Notes under the pieces: model-generated | The model's input: the letters and a program-made list of their open reading frames with translations, nothing else | What the model was told of the DNA's origin: nothing | Database searches by the model: none | Translations under genes and position numbers: made by a program | Shown: positions 17,120-64,000 of the stretch, piece by piece | Position numbering within the stretch: the stretch's first letter is position 1 | Layout of the letters: each line of letters starts with the position of its first letter | Origin: Bacteroides sp. | GTDB lineage: Bacteria; Bacteroidota; Bacteroidia; Bacteroidales; Muribaculaceae | Direction: 5' to 3' | DNA: 64,000 nt | Assembly (NCBI GenBank): GCA_023666835.1 | Contig: JAMPBJ010000001.1 | Coordinates: 306,123-370,122 of the forward strand

Positions 17120-20100
17120 TTAGAAGCTAACCTCGATACCGAATTCGTACTGACGGGTATTCGGGTACTGGAACTGTACCATGTTGGACTGAACTTCGGG
17201 GTCGTAGCCGGAGAAGTTAGTGATGGTCCAAAGGTTACGTCCGGTGAAGTGGAGCTGAAGACCGGCGAGACCCCATTTGTTGATGAGAGTTGTGGGGAAG
17301 TCGTAGGCCACGGTGAGGTTTTTCAGACGGGTGAAGGAAGCGTCTTCCAACCAGCTGGTGTCCTCGCCTGCATAAGTGAGAGTTTCACCGAAAGCGGGAA
17401 CGTCGGTAACCTGACCGGGGTGTGTCCACATGTTGAGAGCCTGAACGCTCTGGTTGTATGAAGTACCGAAGCTTGTGGGGTTGCAGATGAAGTAGCGGTC
17501 GTTGTTGACCATGTATTTGCCGGACTGGAATGCGAAGTTGGCAGTAGCCGAGATGCCTTTCCAGCGAACAGTAGCGCCGAAGCCGCCAACCCAGGGAGCA
17601 TAGGCAGATTTGCCGGTGCAAACCTGAGCGTCGGAGGGGAATACTTTGGTCACGTTGTCGTTCTTGTCGAGCCACATCTGCTTACCGTCGGCGGGATCAA
17701 CGCCTACGTAGCGAACAGCATAGTACTGGCTCATAACGTCGCCAACTTTCTGGATAAGGCCTGTAGAGCCAATGGGATATTCGTCGGTTCCGTCCCAGAG
17801 TTCGAGGATCTGGTTTTTGTTGTAGTTGAACTGAACGCGAGCGCCCACATACCAGTCTTTGTTTTTGAAGATATCGCCGTTGACCTCAACCTCGATACCT
17901 TTGTTTGACATCTTGCAGACGTTGCCGGCACCTAACTCTGCACCAACGGTGAGCGAGTAAGGAATGGTGTAGAGCATGTTTTCGGTGCGTTTGTAGTACC
18001 AGTCGGCAGTGACGGTCAAACGATCGAATACGCGGAAGTTAACGCCAAGGTCATGGCTATAGACGGTTTCCCAAGTAAGGTCTTTGTTAGAGGGGTTGGA
18101 AATGCCGAGAGCCGAACCACCTGCGTAGCCGCCGGTGTAGCCACCGACAGTACCCTGCCATTTGAAGTTGCCGATGTTGGCGTTACCGGTAGCGCCGTAG
18201 CTGTAGTGGAGACGGAGGTCGTCGAGCCATGTCTTTTCTTTGAGGAACGATTCGTTTTTGATGTTCCACATCAAACCGAAGGCGCCGAATGTGCCCCAGC
18301 GATGACCGGGAGCGAGCTGCGATGTGCCGTCGCGACGTACGGAGAAGTCGAAGAAGTAACGGTTGTCGTAGTTGTAGGAGCCGTTGAGGAAGTAGGAGTT
18401 GATCACCTTTTCGGCCTTGCTGTAGCCAACATTGCTCATTGCGATGGTGAGGTTCTGGGTGAGAAGGGTGCGGCGGGGATCAGTAGTACCGGAAGCCGAT
18501 ACGCTGAAGCCATTGCTGCGTGCAATGATTGATTCCTGACCGATGAGCACGGTGAAATTGTGCTTGTCGGCGATGGTGTTGGAGTATTCAGCAGTGTTGG
18601 TGTAGGTGAACTGGTAGTAGCGTGCGAAGCCTTCGCCGTTCGAACCGGGGTTCATGTAGCCAACATCGTTGGAACCGATCTTGACGCCCATGTCGGTGAT
18701 GAAAGTCTTGCGGGGCAAGATGGTCTGCGATGTGCGGTTGTCATAGCCTTCCATAGCCTGCTGAGCACGGATCACGAGGCCTTTGATCGGGTTGATCTGC
18801 TCGTAGAGGCGGAGGTTGCCGGAGATGCGGTTGCGGTTATAGAGATTGTAGCTATACATGTACCAGGGCATTGTGATGCCTGAGTAGGGAAGTTTTTCGG
18901 TGGGAGTGCCATAGACGATGTCGCCGTTGTCGTTGAACGAGTAGTTGAAGGGCGAATCGTAGGGAAGAGCCATACGGGAGAGGAGCATCGGGTTTTCGAG
19001 GTAGAGACCGTCGTCGGCATCATCCTCAAGGTTGATCTTGCTCTTGCGCAGACCGAGGTTACCGCTGAAGCCAATGCGGAACCAGTTGTTGACTTTAGAG
19101 TCAAGGCTCCAGTTAAGGGTCGTACGGTTCATTTCAGAGTTTTGGATGATACCGTCCTGGCTGTAGTAGCCGAGGCCAACGTAGTAGCTGAGGTTGTCGC
19201 TACCGCCGGTCACCGTAGCGTCGACGCTGTAGGTGGGAGCCTGGTCGTTGAACATATATTTACGCCAGTCGGTTGAGATGCCGTAGTTGTTGATGAGGTT
19301 TTTCACGCCGTTGGAAAGGGGAGCGCCTACCATGTCGCGGAACTCCATGTACTGCTGAGAGTTCATCATGGTCACGTTGTCCTTAACCATAGCCGACCAA
19401 CCATAGTTGGCACGGATGTTGACGCGGGCGTTGCTGCCGTATTTACCTTTCTTGGTGGTGATGACAATAACACCGTTGGCACCACGCGAACCGTAGATGG
19501 CGATCGAAGTGGCGTCCTTGAGCACGGTCACGCTTTCGATGTCGGAGGGGTTCATCGAGGTGAAGAACGATTCGCTGATAGGAGCGCCGTCGCAGATAAA
19601 GAGCGGGGTGACGTCCTGAGAGAGCGAGTTGCGACCACGGAGCACGATCGAGATATTGTCGTTGGAGGGGTCACCGGAGTTGGAGTTGATGGCAAGACCA
19701 GCAACCTGACCCTGAAGAGCATCCACGAAGTTGGAGGCCGGAGTCTCATTGATGACTTTGTCGTTTACAACGGAAACAGAACCCACAACGGCGCCAAGTT
19801 TTTTGGCGGAACCGTAGCCGGTCACGACTACGTCGTCGAGAACGTTAGCGTTGGTCTGCAGGTAGACGTTCATTCCCTCAGTGAGAGCCTGAGTTGCGGG
19901 AAGATAGCCTACATAGGTCACTGTAACAGTTTTGACCGACGTGGGTACAGTGATGGTGAATTGGCCATCAGCGTTCGTCATAACACCGGTGGTGGTGCCG
20001 TCGGCTTTCACTGTTGCGCCGGCCAAGGGTTCGGCCTCGTCAGCGCTCAGCACCGTGCCGTGATATGTGCGATTCTGAGCAGAAGCGCTCATAGCAAGCG

Positions 20101-61283: not shown

Positions 61284-62624
61284 TTATTCGTATTGCTCAG
61301 ATGGATCGCAGGCCATTCCTTCAAACAGCCCATGTAGTTTCTTAACTGGCGGATAAACTCCAAATGATTCTGTCAATTCCTTTTGTGGAAAAACAGATTC
61401 AATTTGGTTAAAAAGTCGAATAAGAGAACGACCGATTGCCCAGGAAAGATTTACGGGAACAGCATTGCCAATCTGCTTATATTTTGCTGACATTGAGCCA
61501 CAAAATTTCCATGAATCCGGAAAGGTTTGAATACGAGCGTACTCCCTGACCGTCAATGGCCTGGTTTCAATTGGATGGCAACGTTCCGTCTGCTTTTGTG
61601 CCGGCGCACAAGTAAGAGTCAAACTTGCCTCATCCATACTTAAGCGACGAGCCATTCCGGTTTTACCGCCTCCGAGATTATAACTACCCTTCATGTATTG
61701 CCTTGCTATGTCTTCTGGTAAATCTCGCCAATCTCCGCCTTCCGGAACAAGCTTCATAACCAACTGCTTATCAATTGGATATTTTTGTCCCTCACTTTCA
61801 GGCACATCGCAATTATAAAGATTCCCTGCATAAAATGCATCTCGTAGCGTACGTAGCTCTCCACAAACCGAGGGCCATTCAAATCTAACGTATGGCGCAA
61901 TATCGTTGCGAATAGCAATAAGTATTAATCTCTCACGTTTTTGAGGTACATTATACAAAAGTGCACGAAGAACACGTGGCTGAATGAGAGTATAGCCAAG
62001 TTCAGCAATAACGGATTTTATAGTATCAATAGTTCTGCCATTATCATGTTCAAGTAGACCCTTAACATTTTCCGCCATAAATACCTTGGGTCGTATTTCT
62101 TTTACTGCGCGTGCAAGCTCAAAAAAAAGAGTACCACGAGTTTCTTCAAATCCAAGCCTTTTACCGGCATAGGAAAAGGCTTGACAAGGGAAACCTCCGG
62201 AAAGAAAATCTACTTTGTTGCGATATGGCGTAAAATCTATGTCATGAATATCTCCCTGCACAACATTCCAATCCGGCATGTTTTGAGTTAAAGTTTCGCA
62301 TGCTGCCTTATCAAATTCATTTAGTAGCACATGCTTGAATCCTGCTAAATGCATCCCAAGCGCCAAACCTCCGGCACCTGCAAAAAGTTCAATGGACGTT
62401 AACATTCGCTTTGGCACAACTTGAGATTCTTCTTCCCAAGATGTATTAAGCATTGCATCTATTTCAGGAAAAGATGATAACTCGGATGCTATTAAATACT
62501 TACGACCATCATTATCAGTATGAGGGACGCATTTTCGTTTTGCAATCCACTTATCGACGGTTAATCGAGAAACTCCACATATATCTGCGAAGTTATTTAA
62601 AGATATGTGTGTGTCTTTGTTCAT
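61284..62624 (-). CDS. DNA (cytosine-5-)-methyltransferase with N-terminal helix-turn-helix
   Basis: A 446-residue C5 methyltransferase. Residues about 8-50 form a MerR/excisionase-like helix-turn-helix (NNFADICGVSRLTVDKWIAK). The catalytic domain keeps motif I FAGAGG (81-86), motif IV PCQ with Cys147, motif VI ENV (185-187), motif VIII QKRERLILIA, the family block TLTCAPAQKQTERCHP, motif IX TVREYARIQTFPDSW and motif X QIGNAVPVNL. The target site cannot be read from sequence. No restriction endonuclease is adjacent, so it is an orphan here. It is AT-richer than its left neighbours, suggesting horizontal transfer. The downstream neighbours are unrelated. Confidence 0.93.
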   Translation of the reverse strand: MNKDTHISLNNFADICGVSRLTVDKWIAKRKCVPHTDNDGRKYLIASELSSFPEIDAMLNTSWEEESQVVPKRMLTSIELFAGAGGLALGMHLAGFKHVLLNEFDKAACETLTQNMPDWNVVQGDIHDIDFTPYRNKVDFLSGGFPCQAFSYAGKRLGFEETRGTLFFELARAVKEIRPKVFMAENVKGLLEHDNGRTIDTIKSVIAELGYTLIQPRVLRALLYNVPQKRERLILIAIRNDIAPYVRFEWPSVCGELRTLRDAFYAGNLYNCDVPESEGQKYPIDKQLVMKLVPEGGDWRDLPEDIARQYMKGSYNLGGGKTGMARRLSMDEASLTLTCAPAQKQTERCHPIETRPLTVREYARIQTFPDSWKFCGSMSAKYKQIGNAVPVNLSWAIGRSLIRLFNQIESVFPQKELTESFGVYPPVKKLHGLFEGMACDPSEQYE

Positions 62625-62684
62625 TTCTCTTTTAGACTATTAAATCCCTCATATGTAGCGAATGCAAGAAGATATATAATCCGC

Positions 62685-62761
62685 AAAACGAAACGGAGGA
62701 CGGAAATGAAACGAAGCGGCCCAAATTTAAAACGAAACGGTTCTCGTCACAAAACGAAGCG
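62685..62761. repeat. Four AAACGAARCGG repeats at 21-23 bp spacing
   Basis: The core AAACGAA starts at 62686, 62709, 62730 and 62752, followed by ACGG, GCGG, ACGG and GCG. Spacings are 23, 21 and 22 bp, about two helical turns, so the repeats lie on the same face of DNA. They are about 60-135 bp upstream of the methyltransferase start. A regulator or replication-type protein may bind there. Confidence 0.75.
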
Positions 62762-62782
62762 TACCTCCGGGTGCGCTTTTTT
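62757..62782 (+). terminator. Terminator-like hairpin
   Basis: AAGCGTACC (62757-62765) and GGTGCGCTT (62770-62778) pair with one mismatch, loop TCCG, followed by TTTT on the plus strand. No plus-strand gene precedes it within the window, so its client is unknown. Confidence 0.5.
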
Positions 62783-62876
62783 AATCGCCCGCCCACCTCG
62801 TATTTTTGCTCAAAAATCGACCCGGCTTCGCCGGGGTCTGTTCGCCTCCCGGCGACTCCCCTCTCCCATGTTATTT

Positions 62877-62909
62877 GAATGGCCTCCGAACATCGTCCGA
62901 AGGCCATTC
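62877..62909. repeat. Inverted repeat downstream of the variable protein gene
   Basis: GAATGGCCT (62877-62885) and AGGCCATTC (62901-62909), with additional pairing inside (CCGAAC near GTCCG). It lies about 60 bp beyond the stop of the minus-strand gene. It may be a terminator or the hairpin that often follows a DGR variable repeat. Confidence 0.55.
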
Positions 62910-62923
62910 TTATTTTCTGTTCT

Positions 62924-63017
62924 CGCTTTACGCTTTGGATCGCTTCGCGACCGCTTTCCGCTTTCTCGCTTACGCTGCCTCGGACAACGCTTTGAACGCG
63001 GCCACGCTTTGCGCTTT
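62924..63017. repeat. Cluster of CGCTTT hexamers
   Basis: Exact CGCTTT starts at 62924, 62931, 62952, 62959, 62988, 63005 and 63012, with variants CGCTTC at 62941 and CGCTTA at 62967. Three pairs have the same 7-bp offset. The cluster spans the last 48 bp of the minus-strand gene, its stop codon and the following 46 bp. Confidence 0.75.
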
Positions 63018-64000
63018 GACGAGGTTTCCGCGGAAGGCCAGGCGCGACCCGACAACCGCGACCGTATACGAAGCATCGTAATTCGCATTCGTGCACGACA
63101 CGCCGCCAATCGCACTCGCGCTGCCGTAGCCGCGATAGACCACACGGCCTGTTGCCGTGCTTATCCAGTAGGTGTCGCAGAAGTAGCTGCTAGATGTGCC
63201 GTTTACGGAGCCTACGGGGGTCATGTCCATATAGAGTCCGTGAGCCACGCCGGTTATCCACCATCCGCTGTTCTGCATGCCTTTGACCCATCTTATTGTG
63301 CCATCGGGCATCCATATCCTCCATTTGCCTACGTTGCCGGTGGTGTTGGGTACGTCCACTCCGTCCATCATGTCGTATTTGTGGCCGTAGATGTCCTCGT
63401 AGCCGAGGCAGTTGATGTTGTTCAACTGGGTCACGGTAACCGTGCCGACTGAATCGGCAGTCTTCTCCCATGCGTACTGGTGGACTACGCTGTCGATGAT
63501 TGAGTTGGTGATATCGGATTTTATCAGCTTGGCTTCGTCATAGCCGATGGTGTCCTGCATTCCATACTTCATCGTGCCGCCGGTGGTACGGCTATTGGTG
63601 TGCGAGCCACCGCCGCACTGGCTCTGCGAGTCGAGGCGGCCATACTTGGCGTAGAAGAGGTTGGCGATGCGGTTGTGCATCAGCACGTCTATCTGCTGCA
63701 TTCCGCGTTGTGCGCTGTAGTAGTGGAAGTCGGTCCAGCTCATGCTTGCAGTGGTAGAGCCGCCGGTGATGGCTGCCCTGAACTTGTTGCCGACGGCGGT
63801 TGTGCCGACAACTCCGCAGAGGTGTTCACCATCGAGATACCATTCCGGCTCCATGTCCTCTATCTTGTCGGAGTTTGACAACACGACTTTGTCGAACTCT
63901 GCCTGGTTGTGGATGGAGAAGTGGAGGGTGGCGGCGTTTGACGGGATGTCCTTGATGAGGTACATGCCGGCTTCGAACTTGCTTGAGAGTGTCGGGACGA
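62970..64000 (-). CDS. Candidate DGR variable protein with C-type-lectin-like end, 5' end outside window
   Basis: The frame is open to the right edge, so about 343 C-terminal residues are seen and the start is missing; an internal ATG at 63965 is not taken as the start. The segment resembles Bacteroidales phage or mobile-element surface proteins. Landmarks are HNRIANLFYAKYGR, GTMKYGMQDTIGYDEA, CLGYEDIYGHKYDM, GKWRIWMPDGTIRWVKG and the C-terminal lectin-like block GRVVYRGYGSASAIGG with GSRLAFRG. Between these lies a stretch with the codon pattern of a diversity-generating-retroelement variable repeat (63051-63128). A tail KAQSVAAFKALSEAA follows. It may be a receptor-binding or adhesin protein. 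No reverse transcriptase is present in the window. Confidence 0.7.
   Translation of the reverse strand, partial: VPTLSSKFEAGMYLIKDIPSNAATLHFSIHNQAEFDKVVLSNSDKIEDMEPEWYLDGEHLCGVVGTTAVGNKFRAAITGGSTTASMSWTDFHYYSAQRGMQQIDVLMHNRIANLFYAKYGRLDSQSQCGGGSHTNSRTTGGTMKYGMQDTIGYDEAKLIKSDITNSIIDSVVHQYAWEKTADSVGTVTVTQLNNINCLGYEDIYGHKYDMMDGVDVPNTTGNVGKWRIWMPDGTIRWVKGMQNSGWWITGVAHGLYMDMTPVGSVNGTSSSYFCDTYWISTATGRVVYRGYGSASAIGGVSCTNANYDASYTVAVVGSRLAFRGNLVKAQSVAAFKALSEAA
63051..63128 (-). repeat. Candidate variable repeat (VR) codons
   Basis: Of 26 codons, 17 are NNY and nine end in G (GCG x4, ACG x2, TCG x2, GTG); none ends in A. DGR variation replaces adenines, so AAY and ACG codons in a template would give NNY and NCG codons. 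The constant block encoding GSRLAFRG (63027-63050) follows directly, in the place of the IMH-like end. The template repeat is not in the window. Confidence 0.55.

Follow-up and report, generated by a model that had tools for sequence, protein, structure and literature searches.

In diversity-generating retroelements (DGRs), the reverse transcriptase (RT) miscopies adenines, and its cDNA product takes the place of the variable repeat (VR) in a target gene. The closest described relative of the locus analysed here is hankyphage p00, presented as a Mu-like, transposable phage in the accessible parts of Benler et al. 2018 and of a 2025 PLoS Biology study; the accessible text of the latter reports adenine-site diversity of the VR measured in cultures of hankyphage lysogens. 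The annotated order of p00 (BK010646) runs from the target with its VR through a small ORF to the template repeat (TR) and the RT, followed by ORFs, a thymidylate synthase and a DNA methyltransferase, with the TR and RT within ~0.5 kb after the target. Distant DGR targets and inverted or moved cassette parts are already known. A survey of DGR cassettes (948 DGRs, 122 patterns of order and orientation; PMC6642488) includes moved or inverted parts, an inverted RT among them, but its accessible text does not mention distances of ~26 kb. In Treponema denticola and Thiohalocapsa PB-PSB1, as far as the available portions of the reports go, a VR located far from the TR and RT shows signs of being diversified remotely, but these are bacterial genomes in which the DGRs are not assigned to phages and other targets stand alongside. 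Likewise, according to the available excerpts, a distant VR occurs in Bacteroides phages, namely Quimbyvirus and the Bacuni phages, but Quimbyvirus has two targets and the Bacuni phages carry an additional one next to the RT. In the relatives of the present locus whose retroelement genes lie apart from the target (hereafter split), the remote VR is, in contrast to Treponema and Thiohalocapsa, the only VR seen and, in contrast to Quimbyvirus and the Bacuni phages, there is one VR only, within the stretches read with one pattern. The split layout of hankyphages is unusual within an otherwise known type of system, and a limited literature search returned no description of a lineage of phages in which the sole known target lies this far from the RT and on the opposite strand.

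The window, a 64,000-nucleotide stretch of a Muribaculaceae genome (assembly of 1.79 Mb in 11 contigs, 79% complete), ends inside a target gene of this family. The 3′ part of the gene, which encodes 342 aa of a tail protein (62970..64000, minus strand; delimited from the ORF, tblastn and the scaffold gap), has its stop codon at 62970-62972 (minus strand) and an open 5′ end. A 100-N scaffold gap begins at the base directly after 64000; window edge and gap both cut the gene, and its 5′ part is lost in the gap. The motifs GRVVYRGY and GSRLAFRG, which the original prediction had read as the layout of a DGR target, are both present on the minus strand of this 5′-open ORF. Across 99% of its length, the fragment shares 71.5% identity (tblastn) with the C-terminus of the p00 target, a protein of 2,245 aa in p00 and of ~2,300 aa in the kin, and it matches phrog_14959 (PHROG 14959) with E 1.4e-117. 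Phage records matching the fragment number 29, of which 25 do so at 60-80% identity, and viral contigs contain 34 and genome contigs 26 related target loci, with identities to the fragment of at most 80%, the value reached by the nearest kin (L045, L011 and L046). The window target is a previously undescribed member of the hankyphage DGR family, and homology identifies its gene as the predicted C-terminal end of a DGR-diversified tail protein, carried by a Muribaculaceae prophage of the hankyphage family. For the p00 target, the accessible text of Benler et al. 2018 states a C-type lectin domain. Searches of Pfam and the PDB with the window fragment, together with a PDB profile search, gave no match of weight; an AlphaFold model of the fragment (mean pLDDT 49.7) is too poor to use and had no Foldseek match at E <= 0.001, and a model of the domain of one relative (L064, mean pLDDT 46.2) is also too poor to use. 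The scaffold contains two runs of ~100 N (L001:4124-4223 and ~17200-17300), and the gene to the right of the first run, past 64000, is a RhuM-family gene truncated by the gap.

The VR comprises 107 bp (CGTGTGG...CGCCT, 63040..63146, minus strand) close to the 3′ end of the target gene, whose stop codon begins at 62970, and was delimited by comparison with 33 TRs from relatives, several of which are identical to each other. Relative to the TR of the nearest phages (L077/L079), the window VR has 14 mismatches in 107 positions, 13 of them at template adenines (hypergeometric p = 7e-9); relative to the TR of L080 there are 16, with 15 at adenines (p = 1.4e-9). Over the 33 TRs p ranges from 1.4e-9 to 0.0033, uncorrected for picking the best, and the TRs of distant relatives show up to 17 mismatches to the window VR at non-adenine bases. 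The sole non-adenine mismatch to the L077/L079 TR is site 55, and since the L080 template has an A at this site, the window phage's own template may carry one there as well. Outside the VR, mismatches between the window and L011 fall on codon positions 1, 2 and 3 in 44/306, 35/306 and 139/307 cases, whereas inside the VR the corresponding counts are 9/36, 6/36 and 0/35, and ordinary divergence would not give such a reversal. The call of 62970-64000 as a DGR target is thus upheld, both by homology to the p00 target and by a VR that departs from the TRs of kin mainly at template adenines.

The original prediction had derived adenine-directed mutation of the 26 codons at 63051-63128 from their composition, and its counts are correct (17 NNY, eight NCG and one GTG). 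The NNY share by itself is ordinary, being 61% over all 343 codons of the fragment and similar in this stretch; NCG is enriched (8/26 versus 6% of the fragment overall), and 25 of 26 codons of either type is the highest score, reached in 5 of 318 runs of 26 codons, all overlapping 63051-63128. Adenine-directed mutation of these codons agrees with the comparison to the TRs of the nearest kin, in which almost all mismatches lie at adenines, and with the lack of third-position changes. At the G+C-rich 3′ end of the VR, the sequence GTCGGGTCGCGCCTGG (63038..63053, minus strand; taken from the TR and VR sequences) is also found in the TR of L077/L079, up to the point where VR and TR diverge, and appears IMH-like, its putative role being borrowed from BPP-1. 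In BPP-1, according to the accessible literature, a hairpin after the VR is required and the orientation of the target in the phage genome is not critical. A search of the 150 bases after the VR for perfect stems of 6 bp or more with loops of 3-6 bases found no hairpin of the BPP-1 type (7-10 bp, GRNA loop, 4-34 bp after the VR) in the window, and p00 likewise has no perfect-stem hairpin that close to its VR.

The target gene is followed by the non-coding right end of the prophage (62675..62969, minus strand; defined by similarity to kin), which contains repeats of the CGTTTCGTTTT type and the terminal GCGGATTATA at 62675. Similarity to L045, L050, L052 and L055 past the stop codon breaks off at 62672-62675, and the L011 contig itself terminates at the same point. 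The terminal sequence GTTTTGCGGATTATA is common to the window and its relatives, and the DNA past the terminus differs among the relatives; the right end is therefore placed at 62675, with the target as the last gene of the phage. The window does not have the layout of p00, with TR and RT directly downstream of the target: the right end comes 295 bp past the stop codon, and neither a TR nor an RT lies between the two. A C5-cytosine DNA methyltransferase gene (61284..62624, minus strand; Pfam DNA_methylase, 9.4e-83) stands outside the prophage: its assignment to the phage, by comparison with the terminal methyltransferase of p00, was rejected, as the right end shared with kin terminates 50 bp short of it. 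The start codon of this gene is 50 bp from the right end (62625-62675), so the insertion may have separated the gene from its promoter. In one split-layout prophage ACTG flanks both ends (L045 11329, L099 5222), a probable target duplication; the duplication of p00 is given as 5 bp in the accessible text of Benler et al.

A comparison of related loci reveals two DGR layouts in the hankyphage family. In 34 of 60 loci (L011-L070) the RT lies 117-736 bp after the target, nine lack an RT within 3 kb with 1.5 kb or more of sequence available, and 17 have too little sequence. For 14 loci without an RT beside the target, whole genomes or records were searched, and RT matches at E <= 0.01 were obtained in 10. 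A hankyphage-type RT, 68-80% identical to that of p00, is found in nine of the 14 (L011, L012, L014, L020, L045, L046, L047, L050 and L068), placed by coordinates and lengths on the target's own contig in each, and in these nine split relatives the TR lies 25.3-26.2 kb from the VR, upstream of the target, the two being on opposite strands. The full block RT-DUF4376-ORF-ThyA-MTase, preceded by the TR, occupies the same opposite strand in L011, L012, L014, L045, L047 (Muribaculaceae Isolate-013) and L068. It comes after the TerS-TerL-portal-MuF genes in five of these six; in L047 only MuF is seen before the block. The sequence read for L020, L046 and L050 shows the RT, two ORFs after it and part of ThyA or MTase, and MuF precedes the block in L020 and L050. 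The RT at L077, from the nearest phages, matches RVT_1 (1.6e-13) and contains IGLRSSQ and YCDD; an SQ motif marks DGR RTs.

The relatives of the window thus share with p00 a homologous target with its VR near the C-terminus and the same block TR-RT-DUF4376-ORF-ThyA-MTase. In p00, however, the block stands right after the target, whereas the window target is the last gene and the block of its nearest kin is ~26 kb off on the other strand; moreover, in the split kin that were read, MuA, TerL, portal and MuF share no more than about 25-33% identity with their p00 counterparts over the matched parts. Five of the 14 searched loci have no hankyphage-type RT (L016, L019, L044, L052 and L055). Three of them (L016, L019 and L044) are virus records, possibly fragmentary; the whole 3.1-Mb genome of L052 (Heminiphilus faecis) has no RT match, and the contig with its target stops 6 kb upstream of the fragment; and the L055 genome contains other RTs only, at 48% identity or less. 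The target at L044:580-1494 lacks a whole VR by deletion, and no hankyphage-type RT was found in its 57-kb record.

A tree built on the constant region of the target (51 rows, excluding L044 and 15 rows whose layout is unknown) joins the window target with L045, L011 and L046, all of them split, at 100/99 support. With rows in which the right end follows the target pooled with the split rows and scored against the adjacent ones, the layout changes five times on this tree, and at least three of these changes are forced by supported branches; L017, which has a TR and part of an RT beside its target, pairs with L020 at 89/77 support. A single origin of the split layout is unsupported, and layout is, on this phylogeny, not fixed by kinship. 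Nor is the position of the block tied to the packaging genes, since L013, L048 and L070 keep the RT beside the target despite a TerL that shares 77% identity with that of a split phage. At L056, L070 and L033 the target end runs into template-type sequence. The RT starts 117 and 164 bp past the target in L056 and L070, as if recombination between VR and TR had deleted the intervening stretch, and L033, where the contig stops, may represent an assembly crossing.

Several comparisons indicate that the remote block works in kin. In the TR-VR pairs of eight split phages, 79 of 81 mismatches are at TR adenines. In the ninth pair (L050/L081) only 4 of 13 mismatches are at TR adenines and the RT match falls into two pieces, and some split DGRs therefore look broken. 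Pairs of loci were picked for identity outside the VR and then compared within it. Between L011 and L046 there are 0/865 differences outside the VR and 14/107 inside, all 14 at adenines; L014 and L047 show 0/922 outside and 14 inside, 13 of which are at adenines, and L050 and L052 show 0/916 outside and 15 inside, 15 at adenines. Five more comparisons among L050, L052, L016 and L028 give 0 differences outside the VR and 8-12 inside, all at adenines except site 88 in two of the comparisons; for these four loci the TR of L077 serves as the adenine yardstick, and the layout of L016, L028 and L052 is only partly seen. Because near-identical phages differ only in the VR, and nearly always at adenines, diversification appears recent in the split lineage, including the nearest kin of the window.

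Our analysis makes it quite probable that the window contains the right end of a Mu-like hankyphage prophage whose DGR rewrites its last gene from a template-RT block ~26 kb upstream on the opposite strand. The window gene itself is a real DGR target, most likely belonging to a split DGR with a remote target. In this mechanism the last gene of the prophage would encode a large tail protein, of which ~36 residues near the C-terminus would be rewritten: RNA from the TR would be copied by an RT unfaithful at adenines, and the resulting cDNA would replace the VR. The template-RT block, probably behind the packaging genes ~26 kb upstream on the opposite strand, would reach its target at a distance. 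From the nearest kin we infer that the same block would sit, and work, in the missing part of the window prophage; the two places originally offered for the retroelement, beyond the right edge or remote from its target, both look right, the remoteness by analogy with these relatives. The diversified residues would presumably meet the host receptor, and their variation would change receptor binding.

The window's own assembly has to be weighed against this reading. The earlier statement that no RT lies in the 8 kb to the left holds, and an RT was not found in the whole 79%-complete assembly either, in searches in which the control of one query was positive in 3/14 genomes and a kindred RT query matched in 10/14 relatives. 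A second copy of the VR that could serve as template is also missing from the assembly, which contains only six matches of 14-27 bases with E 0.13 or worse. TerL was not found in a search that was positive in 19/28 genomes or records, a match to the MuA of a kin phage was not found in a search without positive control, and the left end and early genes of the prophage are absent. Lack of a template and an RT from the genome, originally named as evidence against a DGR, is thus literally what the assembly shows, but it is weak evidence against the DGR reading because the prophage is cut by the gap and TerL and MuA are likewise not found. The same four absences (RT, TR, TerL and MuA) would fit a decayed remnant in which the VR was diversified in the past, template and RT were lost and the sequence is frozen, and losses do seem to occur in the family, as in L044 (no VR or RT in its record), L081 (two-piece RT) and L052 (no RT). 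We nevertheless regard a remnant as unlikely: the 3′ part of the gene keeps an intact reading frame, the sequence of the right end is conserved, the gap sits where the rest of the prophage would be in a genome of this completeness, and the VR agrees with the TR of the nearest kin at every non-adenine site except one, which implies little drift since the last rewriting.

A functional DGR could also have its TR and RT elsewhere in the missing part of the prophage than the kin do, and several layout changes within the family speak for such a possibility; it is quite improbable, however, given that neither element lies between target and right end and that all nine relatives with a remote RT share the same distance and the opposite strand. 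That the region is the end of an ordinary fast-evolving or low-complexity gene, without any DGR, would agree with an NNY frequency in the 26-codon stretch close to that of the rest of the fragment, but the adenine bias of the mismatches to the TRs of kin, the unchanged third positions in the VR and homology to a target for which culture measurements showed diversification at adenine sites make it highly improbable.

A split DGR with a remote target, our preferred reading, would also bear on how such elements are found. According to the accessible text of Roux et al. 2021, their own survey, which sought the VR near the RT, misses remote targets, and surveys restricted in this manner overlook them. 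Adjacent and split hankyphages are built from homologous parts and so provide two natural layouts in which to ask whether retrohoming needs proximity or a common orientation; the near-identical split pairs suggest that DGR retrohoming may need neither between template and target. We advance only tentatively, and with some doubt, the broader idea that the window belongs to a Mu-like phage lineage which detached the whole DGR block and runs it ~26 kb off on the opposite strand as its only source of variation, and that DGRs of this kind may mutate the template they copy and thereby burn out. If true, the split layout turns VR and TR from close direct repeats, able to delete each other, into distant inverted repeats. 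The notion of self-mutation of the template comes from L081 and L078, whose templates have lost adenines. Relative to the L077 TR, the TR of L081 (from 1182, plus strand) has 13 differences, 13/13 at adenines, and that of L078 (from 3123, minus strand) has 10, with 8/10 at adenines. These adenine-poor templates may reflect self-rewriting, VR-to-TR conversion or assembly error. The VR of L045 differs from the L078 TR at five sites, all of them adenines.
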